DNA of 7,296 bases from Pseudomonadota bacterium. GTDB lineage: Bacteria > Pseudomonadota > Gammaproteobacteria > Acidiferrobacterales > Acidiferrobacteraceae. Shown here one piece after another: positions 2,778-7,296 of the stretch; the stretch's first letter is position 1, and every line of letters begins with the position of its first letter. Under the pieces are notes generated by a model. The model did not search any database. It worked only from the letters and a program-made list of their open reading frames with translations, and was not told the DNA's origin. Position numbers and translations under genes: made by a program. The DNA is taken from the NCBI GenBank assembly GCA_021795255.1, contig JAJYPQ010000183.1:1-7296 (forward strand). The letters run 5' to 3'.

Positions 2778-3125
2778 ATGACCATCCATGACCAAGCCAC
2801 CCGATTGACCGCGCGCGTCGCACCCTATCTTGAGGCCATCGCCAAAGCCCGCGCGGCGGGGCTCACGTGGGCGGATATCGGCCACCTGTTTCAGGTCAAG
2901 GCGCGGCGCCTGCAATGGGCGGTGAAGCACTGTCGGTACACCGCGGAGCAAAAGCCCTTGCCGGAGCCCGCATCAACCGCCGCCAAGCCCGCACCACGCG
3001 CCAGCACACAGCCGGCGAAAGCGGCCCCCGCGGCACCACCCCTCCCCCCGCCTCCAGGGCAACGCCCCGTGGCCACGGATCAGATGTCGGAGCTCGACCG
3101 GATCCGGGCCGAGTTCGACCGATAG
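2778..3125 (+). CDS. Small HTH DNA-binding protein, StbA/TraK-like
   Basis: A 115-residue protein, first of three co-directional genes. Residues 5-52 look like a compact helix-turn-helix (AGLTWADIGHLFQVKARRLQ at about 27-46). Residues 58-98 form an Ala/Pro-rich linker including PPLPPPP, and a short charged helix ends the protein (MSELDRIRAEFDR). AGAGGA sits 7 nt before the chosen ATG; the longer in-frame version lacks this and would run through the promoter region. In IncW and IncP-like plasmids the gene next to oriT facing away from the relaxase encodes an oriT- or repeat-binding protein (StbA, TraK). StbA controls plasmid positioning and transfer and represses its operon. The 9-bp arrays just upstream are the likely target. 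The StbA-like role is inferred from HTH, order and arrays rather than sequence identity. Confidence 0.75.
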   Translation: MTIHDQATRLTARVAPYLEAIAKARAAGLTWADIGHLFQVKARRLQWAVKHCRYTAEQKPLPEPASTAAKPAPRASTQPAKAAPAAPPLPPPPGQRPVATDQMSELDRIRAEFDR

Positions 3126-3140
3126 ATCCCCTTCGGGGAT
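3126..3140 (+). repeat. Hairpin directly after the StbA-like stop codon
   Basis: ATCCCC (3126-3131) and GGGGAT (3135-3140) pair around TTC, immediately after the stop. No T-run follows (AGGTAATTT), so it looks like an RNA-stability or attenuation element rather than a full terminator. Confidence 0.45.
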
Positions 3141-3172
3141 AGGTAATTTCCGCCCCCGCAGCTATTGCCAAC

Positions 3173-3191
3173 GGGCCGGATCGTCCGGCCC
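3173..3191 (+). repeat. Hairpin just upstream of the StbB-like gene
   Basis: GGGCCGGA (3173-3180) and TCCGGCCC (3184-3191) form a perfect 8-bp stem with a TCG loop. It ends 4 nt before the GAGAGGAA ribosome site of the next gene. It may set the ratio of the first two proteins by protecting or processing the mRNA, or by limiting read-through. Confidence 0.5.
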
Positions 3192-3209
3192 CTTTGAGAG
3201 GAAACCAAT

Positions 3210-3935
3210 ATGACCGAAAACCCCAAACTTCTGATCTCCCATGGCGACAAGGGCGGCACCGGCAAGTCTATGGCCGCAGCCTTGGTACTCGACCACTTCT
3301 TGGCAACGGGCGCTCCTGTCCTATTGATCGAGGGCGATGCCGGGATCCCAGACCTTGCCTTGCGTTTTCGCGGGTCAGTGCCCGTGACGCTGGTCAATTT
3401 GAATCGGGCCGGCGATGCCGAGACCAGTTTCAACAAGTTGGGCAACGTCCTGGAAGCCGCGGCCGCCGCTGGCCAGCATGTCGTAGTCAATATGCCCGCC
3501 GGCGCCGGGGACACGATTGACGAACTGGCCCCGGTCCTATCTGAGATCGTCAGTGCGGTCGGGTATGAACTGGTCGTGACATTCAGTATCGGGCCCCACC
3601 GCACGAGCACTGACGCGCTCCTGAAATCGCTGGATCGGGGACTCCTGTCCGTTGTCGATCCGGCCCGCCGCTCGGTGCTCTTTCCGCTGTTCTTAGGGAT
3701 CGCCGCGCAGTTTGATTGGAGCAAGTCGCCCAGCCGCGCGGACTTTATGAGCGCGGGTGGCAAAGAGGCCGCCATTCCGGCCCTGCGCCCCGACGATCTG
3801 CGCGACAAGATCCTGGCCGCGCCGGGGGCATTCTCGGTCCTGGGTGAGGATAAAGCGGCGCTCACGATCACCGAGCGCGCGCTTTTTCGGCGCTGGCTGG
3901 CACTCGCGCATGCAGCGATCGCCTCAGTTGTTTGA
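3210..3935 (+). CDS. stbB: ParA/MinD-like ATPase of the StbB/TraL family
   Basis: A 241-residue P-loop protein. A deviant Walker A motif, GDKGGTGKS (12-20), carries the signature lysine K14 and the P-loop lysine K19. LLIEGDAG (38-45) supplies the Walker A'-like aspartate D43. The Walker B position VVVNMPAG (91-98) has asparagine where most ParA proteins have aspartate. The length fits IncP TraL and IncW StbB. In R388 StbB is needed for conjugation and works against StbA, which favours vertical stability. Placement second after the HTH gene, beside oriT and opposite the relaxase, matches those operons. GAGAGGAA lies 6 nt before the ATG. The P-loop ATPase assignment is secure; StbB versus TraL naming is less so, because both belong to the same broad group. 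Confidence 0.85.
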   Translation: MTENPKLLISHGDKGGTGKSMAAALVLDHFLATGAPVLLIEGDAGIPDLALRFRGSVPVTLVNLNRAGDAETSFNKLGNVLEAAAAAGQHVVVNMPAGAGDTIDELAPVLSEIVSAVGYELVVTFSIGPHRTSTDALLKSLDRGLLSVVDPARRSVLFPLFLGIAAQFDWSKSPSRADFMSAGGKEAAIPALRPDDLRDKILAAPGAFSVLGEDKAALTITERALFRRWLALAHAAIASVV

Positions 3936-3967
3936 CCCCAAAGGCCGGGAACATTACCCCGGTCCTT

Positions 3968-3989
3968 CATTGTGGGCCGAACGGCCCAT
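3968..3989. repeat. Palindromic 22-bp repeat, copy 2, between the StbB-like and StbC-like genes
   Basis: Identical over 22 bases to 336-357 and in the same orientation. It lies in the 71-nt gap between two stb-like genes and ends 5 nt before the ribosome site of the third gene. As RNA it would form a 6-7 bp stem, so it may act as an intercistronic mRNA structure. Confidence 0.75.
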
Positions 3990-4006
3990 TCACCGAGGAA
4001 CAGAAG

Positions 4007-4732
4007 ATGAGTAACGAGCAGGTAAACGGCAATGCCCGAGATACGGCCTTGGAATCCTTGCCCCCCGAGCTACGCGAAGCGCTGCTGCGCAAGGCCTCCG
4101 ACTTAGGCGTACACCGCGCTGATGATGTGGTCTGGGCGCTCGTCGCCTCGGTCATCGATGCGGCGGCCGCCGCTCAGATGGCAGGACAACACGTAAAAAC
4201 ATTGGTAGAAGAAACGGGGAAGGTGCCGGATTTGATCTACCAAGGGACCATGCGCGCCGGCAATGATCTCAAGGAAGGCGTGGCCCAAGCCATCGAAGAC
4301 AAGACCGTGGAAGCCGGCCAGGCGCTGGTCGGCGCCATCGCCCACGCGGCGGGCAAGGGGGCCACGGACCTGCAGAAGGCCGCCGCCGGCCTCGATCGGA
4401 TGGGGGCTGATAAGGCGGCCGCCTTCATCGAGCAGTGGAAGGTCCATCTGGCCCATGCGATCAAGGAACAGGCCAAGGCAAGTCTGGCCTGGAAGCTCGC
4501 CGAGGGTTGGGGTGTGATGGTTGCCCTGCTAACGGGGATGTTTGTCTTTGGGATGCTAACCATGACTGGCATTGGGATCCTGTCCCATCGGGTCATCCTG
4601 TCCTCGACGGTGACTTATCATAGGGCAGCCGCGGGCAATCCTCCGCAGATCAACTTCGTGGGGCCGCTCTACCGGGCGGCGTCGTGCCCACCGGGGGAGG
4701 CGTGTTTGGTGGTGCCAGGGTCTGGTGATTAA
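4007..4732 (+). CDS. Helical membrane-anchored protein, StbC/TraM-like, third gene of the operon
   Basis: A 241-residue protein. The N-terminal 15-60 (LPPELREALLRKASDLGVHRADD, broken as LPPELREALLRKA and DLGVHRADDVVW) resembles the short N-terminal segment of TraM-type transfer proteins. Residues 60-165 are Ala- and Lys/Glu-rich and probably one long amphipathic or coiled-coil helix. Residues about 168-192 form one hydrophobic membrane segment (LLTGMFVFGMLTMTGIGIL). The C-terminal tail of about 50 residues has two cysteines, C227 and C233. GAGGAA at 3995-4000 lies 6 nt before the ATG; an upstream TTG frame lacks a ribosome site. Position after HTH and ATPase genes fits StbC or IncP TraM, but RP4 TraM is shorter (about 145 residues). 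A membrane anchor for the ATPase is a reasonable guess, not shown. The gene is clearly real; the family is tentative. Confidence 0.8.
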   Translation: MSNEQVNGNARDTALESLPPELREALLRKASDLGVHRADDVVWALVASVIDAAAAAQMAGQHVKTLVEETGKVPDLIYQGTMRAGNDLKEGVAQAIEDKTVEAGQALVGAIAHAAGKGATDLQKAAAGLDRMGADKAAAFIEQWKVHLAHAIKEQAKASLAWKLAEGWGVMVALLTGMFVFGMLTMTGIGILSHRVILSSTVTYHRAAAGNPPQINFVGPLYRAASCPPGEACLVVPGSGD

Positions 4733-4845: not shown

Positions 4846-5169
4846 TTATGCCCGCTTAAGCTGAACATTCATCTTTGGGTTATGCAATTGAATGAGCACA
4901 CGTTCCAGTTCATCGCGACGAGACGCTTCACGGACAAGCGCTGCATGAACATGTGTTGCGCCCAGTTTCTCTGCTTCATCCCATCTCTCATGACTAGAGA
5001 ACCGATCCCGGAAACTTTTCGCCTGGCCAATATAGAGCGAATACCAAAAGCGCGTGTCGCTATGGCAAAAAATGTACAAACCAGGAACATCATGCCAATC
5101 AGAATCTATGCGACAAACTTGAAACTCTATGGAATTATTGTTTCCGACAGACCAATTTACCGTTGTCAT
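4846..5169 (-). CDS. Small standalone GIY-YIG nuclease-family protein
   Basis: The 107-residue protein carries a complete small GIY-YIG core: GLYIF (30-34) and LYIGQA (45-50) give the two signature tyrosine motifs, FRDRFSSH (53-60) the arginine-containing helix, and ELERVLIQ (87-94) the metal-binding glutamate, followed by NPKMN (97-101). No DNA-binding or other domain is attached. The ATG at 5169 is preferred (GAGG 9 nt upstream); a TTG at 5199 would add 10 residues. The gene has its own terminator and faces the stb-like operon. GC is roughly 43%, well below its neighbours, so it looks acquired. Small standalone members include cargo endonucleases, defence nucleases and proteins of unknown role; the sequence does not decide. 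The homing-endonuclease reading is weak because no intron or interrupted gene is visible. Confidence 0.85.
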   Translation of the reverse strand: MTTVNWSVGNNNSIEFQVCRIDSDWHDVPGLYIFCHSDTRFWYSLYIGQAKSFRDRFSSHERWDEAEKLGATHVHAALVREASRRDELERVLIQLHNPKMNVQLKRA

Positions 5170-5268
5170 TGCAAGGTACCTCGCTTCAGAAAAGGTCAAC
5201 AGGATGGTGCTAGCATGAGCCCTGTGTTCTGAAGAGCGGAATGGAGAAAAGCGTATTAAGACGATGGC

Positions 5269-5409
5269 CTACGCGAGGCGGTCGTCGGTTAGCTTAAGTC
5301 GTTGTATCCGGTGTCCATCACACACGATCATCACCCCAACACCACTAATATCTGCCACATCACACTCCGGCAGTCCATATAAAATACTACTAGATGTGGT
5401 GTTTTTCAA
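5269..5409 (-). CDS. Possible 46-residue small ORF downstream of the P-like gene
   Basis: A minus frame from a TTG at 5409 to the TAG at 5271-5269 reads as a normal-looking mixed protein (GLPECDVADISGV, then MIVCDGHRIQRLKLTDDRLA). The frame also stays open upstream into the P-like gene (GTG at 5442). No candidate start has a good ribosome site, and the TTG coincides with the -35 of the promoter candidate. I recognise no family. It could be chance or the remnant of a longer gene. Confidence 0.18.
   Translation of the reverse strand: MKNTTSSSILYGLPECDVADISGVGVMIVCDGHRIQRLKLTDDRLA
5381..5409 (-). promoter_or_regulatory. Candidate sigma70-type promoter toward the GIY-YIG gene
   Basis: On the minus strand TTGAAA (5409-5404) and TATTTT (5386-5381) are separated by exactly 17 bp in an AT-rich setting. 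It would start transcription near 5374, giving the GIY-YIG gene a leader of about 200 nt, and would make that gene independent of the replication operon. Confidence 0.5.
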
Positions 5410-5434
5410 TACACAATATACTATACCGTGTATT
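5408..5434. repeat. Inverted repeat at the end of the P-like gene
   Basis: AATACAC (5408-5414) and GTGTATT (5428-5434) are perfect 7-bp arms 13 bp apart, overlapping both the TAA stop of the P-like gene and the -35 of the promoter candidate. No T-run follows on the minus strand. An operator is more likely than a terminator. Confidence 0.4.
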
Positions 5435-6050
5435 ATGGGCACAGTAGAGCACGCATCGCAGTCAGCGCGGCCTCCGCCACCTCGGGTCGCGCGGGTGTCG
5501 GAAGTTTTTCTAGAGCCTGGGGGATCGGCGCCTCGAACTGTTCCCCGGCCAATATACGGCGCGTCACGATCTCATAGGCTCGCTCAAACATCGGACGGCT
5601 TTTGGATTCGGGGAGCGTGCGCAGCTCAAAGAGACCCGTGGCCTGCGCGGCGGCATAGACCGCGGGGTGGCTCCATTGGTGATCCCGATCTGCCAGCGCG
5701 GCTTCACGATACGCAGCGTCAGGTGTCGGTAAGCCCAAGTCCTCGGCCGTGGGCGTACACAGCGCCCGAAACTCCGGCAAAGTGGGCGGCCACCCGCCTT
5801 CGCGATGCGTCGCACAGCGCGACAATCCACGGCCGACCTGGGCGGGCGTCAAGCCGTGCAAGCCTCGCAACCAGGTTGAGTCATCCTTCGCCCCAAACGC
5901 TGACGTCCAACGATGGCCGTAGATCCGCGTCATCCGGCGCCACAGGTCCGCCAGGTGACGTTCCGTCAAAAAGTTCTGGCTGGTAGAGGTGGGCTGTGGC
6001 GCGCTCGACGCGACCGACAGCGGAGTTGTCAATGCGCTGATGGGTTGCAT
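5433..6050 (-). CDS. Phage lambda P-like replication protein (helicase-loader candidate)
   Basis: A 205-residue protein. Residues 33-98 contain the pattern seen in lambda P-type loaders: LWRRMTRIYGHRW, then W-LRGLHGLTPAQVGRGLSRC, then GGWPPTLPEFRALC, comparable to lambda P around its PSPGQF-WC segment. Residues 100-205 are helical and Ala/Arg-rich with no ATPase motif, so it is not a DnaC-type AAA loader. Lambda P binds DnaB and the initiator and releases DnaB at the origin. AGGAG lies 7 nt before the ATG at 6050, a strong site. The first 57 codons lie inside the end of the upstream initiator gene in another frame. Lambda P is slightly longer at 233 residues. The family link rests on this pattern and the gene order after an O-like initiator. 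Confidence 0.75.
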   Translation of the reverse strand: MQPISALTTPLSVASSAPQPTSTSQNFLTERHLADLWRRMTRIYGHRWTSAFGAKDDSTWLRGLHGLTPAQVGRGLSRCATHREGGWPPTLPEFRALCTPTAEDLGLPTPDAAYREAALADRDHQWSHPAVYAAAQATGLFELRTLPESKSRPMFERAYEIVTRRILAGEQFEAPIPQALEKLPTPARPEVAEAALTAMRALLCP

Positions 6051-6924
6051 ATGAAGTCTCCTGTTTCAAGGCAAAGAGGCCTTTCCAGCCGTTTGCGATC
6101 GATTGCCGGACAACAGCGAGTTGTCCGCCCAGCCCTTCCGCCTCTGATCCGAACTTCACCAGTCGGGTCTGAGCCGCTTCTACCGATGCCTGATGGATGG
6201 GTTTGCGGATAGCGGATCGGAAGGTCACATACTCCGTCCAGGCTTCCAGATCCAAGCCTCCGACTAGTGGCGTGAGAAGCGCCTGGTTAGGGGGTTTGTG
6301 GGTGCGGCATCGCACAGGAAGGTGCGTGCCGCAGTTCGTATCGCCATGCCCAGGATTATCAGTGGTGGGCGGTTGCACCGTCCCCCGTGGGGGGACTACC
6401 GAGCGTAGCGAGGTAGGGGGGTTGTTAGTAATCTCTGCTGTAGTCTCTGTATTAGCATGCGGTCTGGCCGCATGCTTGTATGTGGTATCACCACATACTG
6501 GTTGGTGGTCACACCCCATACTGGTTGGCGGCTCTGCTCCATCCTTGGGTGTGGTACCACTGCCACCAAGATCGCCGCCATTATTCATATTCAAAAGACG
6601 GCTCGTTAAGACGGTCACGTCAATCTTGAAATACAACTTTGCCGGAATCCCCCGCAGCGCCTCTTCCCATACTCCCGTTTTTCTTAGCAGTTTCCTGGCC
6701 GCCTCCTGCTCCCAGCGGGTGAGCATGGTTTCCTCATACCACTCTTCTTGTTTTTTCCAGAACCAGCCGTCTGGATCCTTTGTTCTGCTACTCCAGTAAA
6801 GGGCCTGTGACAGCATCAGGCCGGCGTGCACGCTACCGGCAAGGCGAGCCAGACAGCGATGAAAAGAGACCGGCCGATCAAGAATATCGGCGATCGAGTT
6901 CGTAGAATTCAATTTCTGACTCAT
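5881..6924 (-). CDS. Lambda O-like plasmid replication initiator candidate (winged-helix)
   Basis: A 347-residue protein. Residues 18-110 resemble the winged-helix N-terminus of phage and plasmid initiators (SVHAGLMLSQALYWSSR, GWFWKK, EQEAARKLLRKTG, GIPAKLYFKID). Residues 112-222 are a Thr/Pro/Gly/Asn-rich linker whose DNA contains the iterons and hairpins listed separately. Residues 223-288 form a second helical domain (LEAWTEYVTFRSAIRKPI through IANGWKGLFALK) typical of O-like and DnaD-like replication proteins. A tail follows with QPELF at 315-319, resembling a beta-clamp-binding motif. The ATG at 6924 is chosen because GGGGGA lies 7 nt upstream and because it overlaps the previous stop as ATGA; an ATG at 6951 has no good site. 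Initiator function is inferred from domains, intragenic iterons and the P-like partner. Confidence 0.78.
   Translation of the reverse strand: MSQKLNSTNSIADILDRPVSFHRCLARLAGSVHAGLMLSQALYWSSRTKDPDGWFWKKQEEWYEETMLTRWEQEAARKLLRKTGVWEEALRGIPAKLYFKIDVTVLTSRLLNMNNGGDLGGSGTTPKDGAEPPTSMGCDHQPVCGDTTYKHAARPHANTETTAEITNNPPTSLRSVVPPRGTVQPPTTDNPGHGDTNCGTHLPVRCRTHKPPNQALLTPLVGGLDLEAWTEYVTFRSAIRKPIHQASVEAAQTRLVKFGSEAEGLGGQLAVVRQSIANGWKGLFALKQETSYATHQRIDNSAVGRVERATAHLYQPELFDGTSPGGPVAPDDADLRPSLDVSVWGEG
6303..6333. repeat. Long hairpin in the initiator linker region
   Basis: TGCGGCA-t-CGCAC (6303-6315) pairs with GTGCG-TGCCGCA (6322-6333) across AGGAAG. There are 12 pairs with a single bulged T. This is the strongest inverted repeat in the window and lies in coding sequence. 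Confidence 0.6.
6380..6396. repeat. GTCCCCC/GGGGGAC hairpin
   Basis: A perfect 7-bp stem (6380-6386 with 6390-6396) around GTG. It is followed at 6396-6417 by a weaker dyad, CTACC...GGTAG, containing GAGCGTAGCG. Both lie in the proposed origin. Confidence 0.55.
6420..6456. other. AT-rich segment beside the iterons, candidate unwinding element
   Basis: About 39% GC within a region that is otherwise near 60%, lying immediately on the P-gene side of the iterons. In lambda the AT-rich segment of ori has the same position relative to the iterons. It is short, and a second AT-rich patch (about 6579-6596) lies on the other side. Confidence 0.4.
6454..6498. repeat. Two adjacent 9-bp-stem palindromes overlapping the first iterons
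   Basis: AGCATGCGG (6454-6462) pairs with CCGCATGCT (6468-6476) around TCTGG. One base later GTATGTGGT (6478-6486) pairs with ACCACATAC (6490-6498) around ATC. Both stems are perfect. The second is formed by the end of iteron 1 facing the start of iteron 2, so iteron and palindrome recognition would compete. Confidence 0.6.
6467..6556. repeat. Four iterons with a 23-bp period
   Basis: Copies start at 6467, 6490, 6513 and 6536. Each is about 21 bp and shares the pattern CATnCTkG (from copy position 5) and GyGGy (from position 16). The two central copies match at 17 of 21 positions; the outer two match each other at 16 of 21. The period of 23 is not a multiple of 3, so the repeats are not a by-product of repeated amino acids. 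This indicates selection on the DNA, probably for binding by the initiator. Lambda ori also has four iterons. Confidence 0.65.
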
Positions 6925-7295
6925 GCTGCCATCCCCCACCCGAAATCGCATTGCCGGGGGTCCACGAACCGCCGGCGCGGACGGCGGCTTGTTGCACGGC
7001 GAGATGCCTTGGGTGGCGACGGCACGCGGGGCACCAACATCAAGATGGGTGTGGCAAAAGCGTTACCCGGTGACGCTTTCCGCTTGCGGCCAGCAGGACT
7101 GGGCGGCCGTTTCGTCACTATGGCGGTCGGCAATGGATCATCGAGATGTGCCGCCCGTTCCTCGATGGTGGTGTTGGCCTTTGCCCAGTCCCATTGCCAG
7201 TCCTGGATTTGCCGAACGCGTCGCGCGGATCGCCCGACTTCATTCCCGATCTTCTCGGATTCCCCAGCACCGTGCCGCGCAGACGAAACCAGGAC
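6921..7295 (-). CDS. C-terminal part of an unrecognised basic protein, coupled to the initiator
   Basis: A minus frame is open from the right edge to the TGA at 6923-6921, giving 124 visible residues. The first part (GAGESEKIGNEVGRSARRVRQ, as GESEKIGNEVG then RSARRVRQIQDWQWDW) could be an HTH-like helix pair. The rest is Arg/Pro/Lys-rich with stretches such as SRRPRRRFVDPRQ and is probably disordered and nucleic-acid binding. The stop overlaps the initiator ATG as ATGA, which suggests translational coupling and one replication operon. I do not recognise the family; a ParB-like or regulatory protein is possible but unproven. GC-rich DNA often leaves frames open, so the evidence is the ATGA junction and the uninterrupted frame. 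Confidence 0.5.
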   Translation of the reverse strand, partial: VLVSSARHGAGESEKIGNEVGRSARRVRQIQDWQWDWAKANTTIEERAAHLDDPLPTAIVTKRPPSPAGRKRKASPGNAFATPILMLVPRVPSPPKASRRATSRRPRRRFVDPRQCDFGWGMAA

Positions 7296-7296
7296 A

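Follow-up and report, generated by a model that had tools for sequence, protein, structure and literature searches.

A probable plasmid replication origin within the linker-coding part of an O-like initiator gene

The window considered here, the whole stretch of 7,296 nucleotides of contig JAJYPQ010000183.1 from a Pseudomonadota bacterium (family Acidiferrobacteraceae), encodes on its reverse strand an O-like replication initiator and, adjoining it, a lambda P-like helicase loader (Table 1). The part of the initiator gene that codes for the protein's linker contains an array of 23-bp palindromic repeats followed by 12-bp repeats, and together these probably form a replication origin. The initiator comprises 356 amino acids when read from the ATG at 6951 (its homologues P0001 and P0002 begin at an internal ATG at 6924), and the phrog_9773 profile (replication initiation O-like) covers residues 19-180, that is, the N-terminal domain (N-domain) and the linker, at 1.2e-35. 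Along with the matches of the neighbouring protein to phrog_109 and PF06992, this bears out the original prediction, made from the letters of the DNA, of an O-like initiator beside a P-like protein. In a search of Pfam at E 0.1 no family matched the initiator, and neither Rep_3 nor RepA_N was found. The two genes overlap by 170 bp (5881-6050), in different frames.

Iterons and 12-bp repeats in the linker-coding DNA

The original prediction placed four iteron copies at 6467, 6490, 6513 and 6536, within the interval 6467..6556. All four are present with an exact 23-bp step, which does change the reading frame from copy to copy (successive units lie at frame offsets 1, 0, 2 and 1), although the fourth copy finishes at 6558 and the register common to relatives extends the array to 6454. 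Compared pairwise, the four copies agree at 12-17 of 23 positions. Over 6467-6558 an offset of 23 gives 44/69 matches and its multiple, 46, gives 25/46, with all other offsets between 3 and 59 giving at most 20/49. The same period ranks first among 10-40 across the gene at comparison lengths of 23, 46, 69 and 92, and not one of 1000 synonymous-codon shuffles, nor any of 1000 first-order Markov sequences, equalled the observed score (lengths 23, 46 and 69). Tandem Repeats Finder reported two copies (6482-6528) and a second repeat search gave no direct repeat; since repeat finders give at most two copies, the array must be described as degenerate.

Each unit has the form of a dyad, 6-n5-6. The window's units together read AGnATGnnG-n5-CCnCnnnCn, two of them (6477-6499 and 6454-6476) having perfect 6-bp arms, and the units of relatives in the common register approximate AGnWTGnnn-n5-nnnCAWACn, the 6-bp arms being separated by a 5-bp centre, often a run of A such as GAAAG or AAAAC.

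A hidden Markov model (HMM) of the N-domain found 125 open reading frames (ORFs) in the loci collected, 118 of which continue for at least 150 nt past the domain, and these were reduced to 59 representatives whose linker DNA is no more than 80% identical. The best linker period (among 15-40) was 23 in 46 of the 59, and again in 18 of 21 genes of a non-redundant set fetched later, and the repeat score exceeded that of all 40 synonymous shuffles in 47/59 genes. Unit sequence and encoded peptide diverge among these homologues. Because the period is conserved and the unit sequence and peptide are not, the proposal that the repeats are iterons under selection at the DNA level stands up to the comparison among homologues that had been suggested for it. 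The closest DNA relative fetched, L014 (metagenome-assembled genome Proteobacteria DBS1-1.bin113), is nearly identical over the N-domain and the array, and is too similar to the window to be informative on conservation.

On the 3' side of the array, the core AGAGAnTAC of the 12-bp element was found in 47 of the 59 representatives, its copies lying 12 bp apart in 49/57 cases. The two features tend to occur together: with an array defined as a best period of 22 or 23 with at least 25/46 matches, both were present in 44 genes and neither in 9, three genes having only the array and three only the element. The 36-mer from 6420 is the least stable of the 1035 in the initiator gene, so the claim that the iterons lie beside an AT-rich stretch is correct in that the gene's least stable DNA is directly 3' of them.

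Since 12 bp is in frame, a reading of the element at the level of protein (TETTTEIT) needed to be excluded, and 99 of 104 copies do share one reading phase. However, where the spacing of copies departs from the frame (11 bp in L138 and L143, 14 bp in L144), the DNA motif is kept and the peptide is changed. Moreover, the glutamate codons of the TExT repeats are GAG rather than GAA by 101 to 2, as against 706 to 634 elsewhere in the same 59 ORFs. On these comparisons, the 12-mer element is constrained as DNA.

The element was also sought by DNA alone. A search of IMG/VR for two copies returned at least 120 stretches; in the 80 examined, 61 elements fell in ORFs with this N-domain and 21 in other ORFs, 82 in all. 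Among the 55 non-redundant loci, the best period upstream was 23 in 43, 24 in 6, 22 in 4 and 21 in 2, and their median score was not attained by any of 202 control stretches taken from the same contigs. Since 48 of the 55 N-terminal parts cluster together under single linkage, the element may be a property of one diverse winged-helix superfamily and not of unrelated initiators. With a 44-bp query and a cut-off of E 1, matches numbered 50 among 50,697 phage records and 15 among 72,556 plasmid records, several of them annotated as replication initiator or O-like protein, and including phages of Staphylococcus, Bacillus, Xanthomonas and Burkholderia and plasmids of Levilactobacillus. In the seven matches that were opened, arrays were clear in L475 (23), L476 (22) and L479 (23), moderate in L478 (22), tied at 32 and 23 in L480, and weak in L477 and L481. 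L477, an 8.4-kb Bacillus plasmid (NC_022531), has three CAGAGATTAC-like repeats, preceded by degenerate repeats, at a place where no gene is listed. Within 398 genomes of the phylum to which the genome of L014 belongs, the two-copy pattern occurred in 2, and its reversed control had none among the matches listed. Both occurrences lie in initiator-like ORFs and follow an array (L014, 23 bp; L483, 22 bp). A literature search for the 12-mer strings returned nothing on replication origins among the matches listed.

Recognition domain, target residue and cassette exchange

Alignment A3 of the N-domain contains 51 of the 59 representatives (L013, L113, L206, L111, L207, L112, L209 and L210 were omitted), with identities to the window of 38-66%. 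L111 does have a 23-bp array, which comes after the last of its N-domains. Two N-domains apparently stand in tandem in the ORFs L111, L112 and L208, including the 689-aa frame of G635. Pfam returned nothing meaningful for the 51 N-domains, with no match to RepA_N (PF06970). Searches of PDB by sequence gave no relative at E 1 with alignment A1 and, with A3, one chance-level match to a splicing factor (E 1.2). The predicted fold comes closest to that of the RepA initiators from staphylococcal plasmids (PDB 4pql, 4pt7, 5kbj), with other winged helices scoring nearly equally.

One alignment column, 73 (residue 80, in TR-x-EQ), explains 67% of the variance in the inner triplet of the iteron half-sites (R2 0.67, z 14). 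The runner-up by z reached 8.8 with an R2 of 0.19, and no other of the 14 columns reported had an R2 above 0.35. This covariation was computed on the 44 of 51 A3 rows that passed the unit score, that is, those with a good array; three of them (L145, L194 and L205) had no half-site and were entered as empty vectors. Arginine at residue 80 goes with CGC in 12 of 13 genes (L191 has CGA), one of the 12 being a tie (L197, CGC equal to GTG), and lysine goes with GGG or GGA in 7/7 (L127 ties GGA with GGG). Tyrosine, phenylalanine, serine, tryptophan, threonine and cysteine go mostly with CCG, CAG, CCA or CTG. The window itself combines W80 with mostly CCA/CCG half-sites, even though its nearest domain is that of the K-class L003 (66%), followed by the T-class L001 at 64%. 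In a tree built without column 73 there were four supported pairs for R/CGC, two for K/GG, and none in the opposite direction; with so few pairs, tree tests are unable to reach p 0.05. Two sister domains, L142 and L174, belong to different classes (Y with CAG and R with CGC, respectively).

A prediction fixed before the new loci were fetched fitted the triplet in 11 of 13 scored genes, one of the fits (L228) being a four-way tie. These 13 came from the 21 genes of the later set, which contained no K gene. Three were dropped for want of a good array, two had alanine, for which there was no prediction (both turned out to have CCG), and in three the residue was missed by the pattern; these last, read only afterwards, have R with CGC as the commonest triplet. 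Nine named phage and plasmid records, which may overlap with the IMG/VR set, were also examined. Six could be read clearly and all six fit the code: R with CGC in a Marinobacter plasmid (NZ_CP092286), Synechococcus phage Ssp-JY37 and Acinetobacter plasmid pANC7933.3, S with CCG in Pseudomonas phage Atpa001, Y with CAG in Vibrio phage R20L, and Y with CCG in Escherichia phage SaltyDalty. A Comamonas plasmid was weak, and two Calothrix plasmids had period 22 with unreadable half-sites. AGAGAnTAC is present in six of the nine and absent from SaltyDalty, the Comamonas plasmid and Calothrix p2. For L354 (NZ_CP156783) the annotation divides the initiator region into two coding sequences, the second of which holds the array and the element. 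The covariation supports the view that a single residue, near the beginning of the recognition helix, may largely determine target specificity.

The recognition domain and its putative target also appear to travel together. The N-half of P0001 (168 residues, including the array and element region) is 100% identical to the window's, and its C-half is 85% identical to that of the window and 96% identical to that of P0003, whose own N-half is unrelated (20%) to the one that the window and P0001 share. In P0003-P0012 the C-half is related to that of the window (68-88% identity), whereas the N-halves are others. In this comparison DNA was available for L014 and L104, and P0001-P0012 were compared as proteins. 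As recognition domain and target are contiguous, the N-domain and the origin appear to move between C-half backbones as one cassette. Two adjacent strong palindromes lie near the point of N-half exchange, and a similar pair occurs in L104, whose N-half differs again.

Table 1. Positions of the initiator locus features in the window, with strand and the basis of each assignment
Feature	Position	Strand	Basis
O-like replication initiator gene	5881..6951	-	phrog_9773 1.2e-35, phrog_678 6.9e-16
N-terminal DNA-binding (predicted winged-helix) domain of initiator	6604..6894	-	HMM; AlphaFold2 model, pLDDT (predicted local distance difference test) 89
W80 codon, predicted specificity residue, second in recognition helix	6712..6714	-	covariation; AlphaFold2 model, helix 60-73
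Degenerate fifth unit, distal array end	6546..6568	-	10-14 of 23 matches to other units
Iteron unit 1 (AGGATGGAGCAGAGCCGCCAACC)	6523..6545	-	23-bp step, dyad register
Iteron unit 2 (AGTATGGGGTGTGACCACCAACC)	6500..6522	-	23-bp step, dyad register
Iteron unit 3 (AGTATGTGGTGATACCACATACA), arm pairs 6/6	6477..6499	-	dyad register
Iteron unit 4 (AGCATGCGGCCAGACCGCATGCT), arm pairs 6/6, partly beyond the interval first predicted	6454..6476	-	dyad register
Two copies of 12-bp repeat CAGAGAnTACn (ACAGAGACTACAGCAGAGATTAC), candidate unwinding element	6428..6450	-	motif in homologues; DNA instability
Second palindrome at cassette junction	6396..6416		sequence; similar one in L104
Palindrome at cassette junction	6380..6396		sequence; similar one in L104
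Lambda P-like helicase loader	5433..6050	-	phrog_109 5e-29, PF06992 2e-7

A candidate origin, its alternatives and its relatives

We propose, with a probability of roughly 0.83, that 6421-6568 is a plasmid replication origin carried by its own initiator gene, in the part that codes for the linker. The initiator would bind, through dimers of its N-domain, the four (or five) palindromic iterons, which lie just over two helical turns apart, and the resulting complex would strain the adjoining weak DNA with its CAGAGAnTACn repeats until it opened. One opened strand of the repeats would probably be held in a loop-back manner, by the initiator or by another factor, and the C-half and the P-like protein may then bring the host helicase, by analogy with lambda.

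Several observations weigh against this proposal. Thirteen of the 59 representatives have other best periods (21 in four, 18 in two, 33 in two, and 22, 24, 25, 27 and 28 in one each), and in 902 of 2360 cases a synonymous shuffle still had 23 for its best period; as the peptide bears an imprint of the repeat, this control shows an excess of strength, not the absence of a signal from shuffled sequences. Nor is the 23-bp step special to the clade, since the O-like ORFs L084, L087 and L092 have strong 23-bp arrays (42/46 matches) with neither this N-domain nor the 12-mer. The window's central pentamers do not have the A-run common in relatives. None of the 73 O-like ORFs retrieved by way of the C-half contains CAGAGAnTAC and, judged from proteins, the plasmid family's other N-types lack the element; a search of lambda found no such repeat either. 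The residue-80 code, for its part, would depend on a small number of independent switches (4 + 2 supported pairs in the tree), and it missed two of the 13 new genes, L227 (S, TCG) and L267 (H, CGG), the latter agreeing with L008, which also has H with CGG.

Perhaps the 12-mer is not a melting element but a binding site for another protein, such as host DnaA, a primosome component or a nucleoid protein, or else a recombination site for the swapping of cassettes. This we consider a minor though serious possibility. An element common to loci with different iterons is what would be expected if a shared factor read it, and the element does lie near the cassette junction. However, it sits in the gene's least stable stretch, tandem and directional beside the array, as in known unwinding elements, and its absence from all 73 ORFs found through the C-half argues against a factor needed by all O-like systems.

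Iterons act in autoregulation, incompatibility and copy control in many plasmids. Such roles, of which handcuffing is mentioned in the available excerpts of PMC5703833, would be those of the present repeats if they were regulatory sites for the initiator and the origin lay elsewhere. We regard this as improbable, because an unstable 12-mer element is coupled to the array and lies 3' of it, the repeats are inside the gene and not at its promoter, a P-like loader adjoins the initiator, and the layout is that of lambda ori, inside gene O, and of the pSK41 origin as far as it is described in those excerpts. That the periodicity and the TExT repeats merely reflect a repetitive linker or chance is scarcely credible and already refuted as a full account: the in-frame 12-bp spacing, the common phase and the partial survival of the 23-bp signal in synonymous shuffles speak for it, but chance is ruled out by the two sets of 1000 shuffled sequences, and protein repeats by the frame shift at every 23-bp copy, the 11- and 14-bp spacings and the GAG bias.

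Origins inside initiator genes are textbook knowledge, and the proposed origin has relatives of several kinds. In lambda (record NC_001416) ori is annotated inside gene O, and the likeness, in so far as excerpts of PMC7466680 and PMC5043065 describe it, extends to four palindromic iterons inside the gene of the initiator, AT-rich DNA immediately 3' of them and a P-like loader next. The differences are that the lambda iteron starts are 20, 24 and 23 bp apart, as opposed to exactly 23 in the window, that lambda has no CAGAGAnTAC repeat, and that the window's N-domain is not detectably related to lambda O, which its HMM did not match at E 0.01 (L213; a result at the level of sequence). The mirroring of lambda ori that had been predicted therefore holds for the iterons within the gene, the unstable DNA 3' of them and the P-like loader, and, at the level of sequence, does not extend to a lambda O-type DNA-binding domain.

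The RepA_N initiators of the pSK41 type are similar in having four Rep boxes centrally in rep, with the linker encoded by the origin (PMC5703833, in part), and their winged-helix N-domain is the nearest to the fold predicted for the window's, if by a narrow margin over other winged helices. Excerpts of the same paper describe a chimera, pPR9, in which N-domain and origin are swapped, and the window's type of domain and origin likewise appear to move together. The window's group differs in that none of 51 members has a RepA_N match in Pfam, in its Gram-negative plasmid and phage setting, with a lambda P-like loader in the window itself, and in the 12-mer element and residue-80 code, which those excerpts do not mention. 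The PLE (phage-inducible chromosomal island-like element) RepA of Vibrio phage satellites (PDB 4ro3) differs in that the PLE origin, according to parts of PMC7145576, is non-coding and not in the initiator gene. In iteron plasmids such as RK2, tandem 13-mers in the unwinding element stand beside the iterons, Rep binds one strand of the opened repeats, and the repeats differ in length, spacing and sequence between replicons (PMC10797057, as excerpted). The tandem 12-mers adjoining the iterons here are comparable, whereas CAGAGAnTACn is common to many replicons with different iterons and the repeats of that account vary by replicon. Thus, the scheme of an origin within the initiator gene is known from lambda and pSK41, and the shared 12-mer and the one-residue code appear new; neither was found in the literature searched, which covered little subscription literature.

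In the records opened, the initiator's neighbours are annotated as ATP-binding protein, DnaC, DnaB or DnaB-like helicase, primase/helicase, DUF6475 or hypothetical. It is tempting to speculate, at what we would call even odds, that the phage and plasmid initiators of Proteobacteria, Cyanobacteria and Firmicutes include a large group built around a single standard origin cassette, consisting of a winged-helix domain, a palindromic array of nearly fixed 22-24 bp period in which one recognition-helix residue reads the inner triplet, and CAGAGAnTACn as a sequence-specific opening site. Such cassettes would plug into P-like, DnaC-like, DnaB or primase-helicase modules, with origin identity and helicase recruitment evolving separately. 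If so, a 12-mer common to many loci that differ in their iterons would serve generally as the signal for opening, and the protein that reads it could be searched for directly; the one-residue code would make origin specificity, and perhaps compatibility groups, readable from sequence for uncharacterised phages and plasmids. The DNA signature also locates candidate origins in unannotated contigs, as with the two matches among 398 genomes.

Genetic setting of the locus

No DNA relatives of 5300-7296 were found in the plasmid collection searched. The surroundings include a TrwC-type relaxase with helicase domains (1-2304, by Pfam), an ORF at 3210-3935 with a weak ParA-type match under the Pfam cut-off, and an ORF at 4846-5199 that is GIY-YIG nuclease-like, slightly under the same cut-off. 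From these neighbours the initiator would therefore be carried by a mobilisable or conjugative element and not by an obvious phage. The conjugative-plasmid backbone of the original prediction is upheld to the extent of the relaxase, the only transfer gene in view within the window, and the weak ParA-type match; nothing further of it was identified there. Plasmid pANC7933.3 likewise has a GIY-YIG gene just upstream of its initiator region. The genes at 2778-4732 we take to resemble plasmid Stb operons.

Two further repeats lie away from the initiator. An 18-nt palindromic string, TGTGGGCCGAACGGCCCA, occurs twice, at 339-356 inside the relaxase gene and at 3971-3988 just past the weakly ParA-like gene. 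Between the relaxase gene and 2778-3125, 11-bp direct repeats (AATACGGTACC, 3.5 copies) occupy 2563-2600, and we presume that these may be StbA-type or oriT-linked sites.
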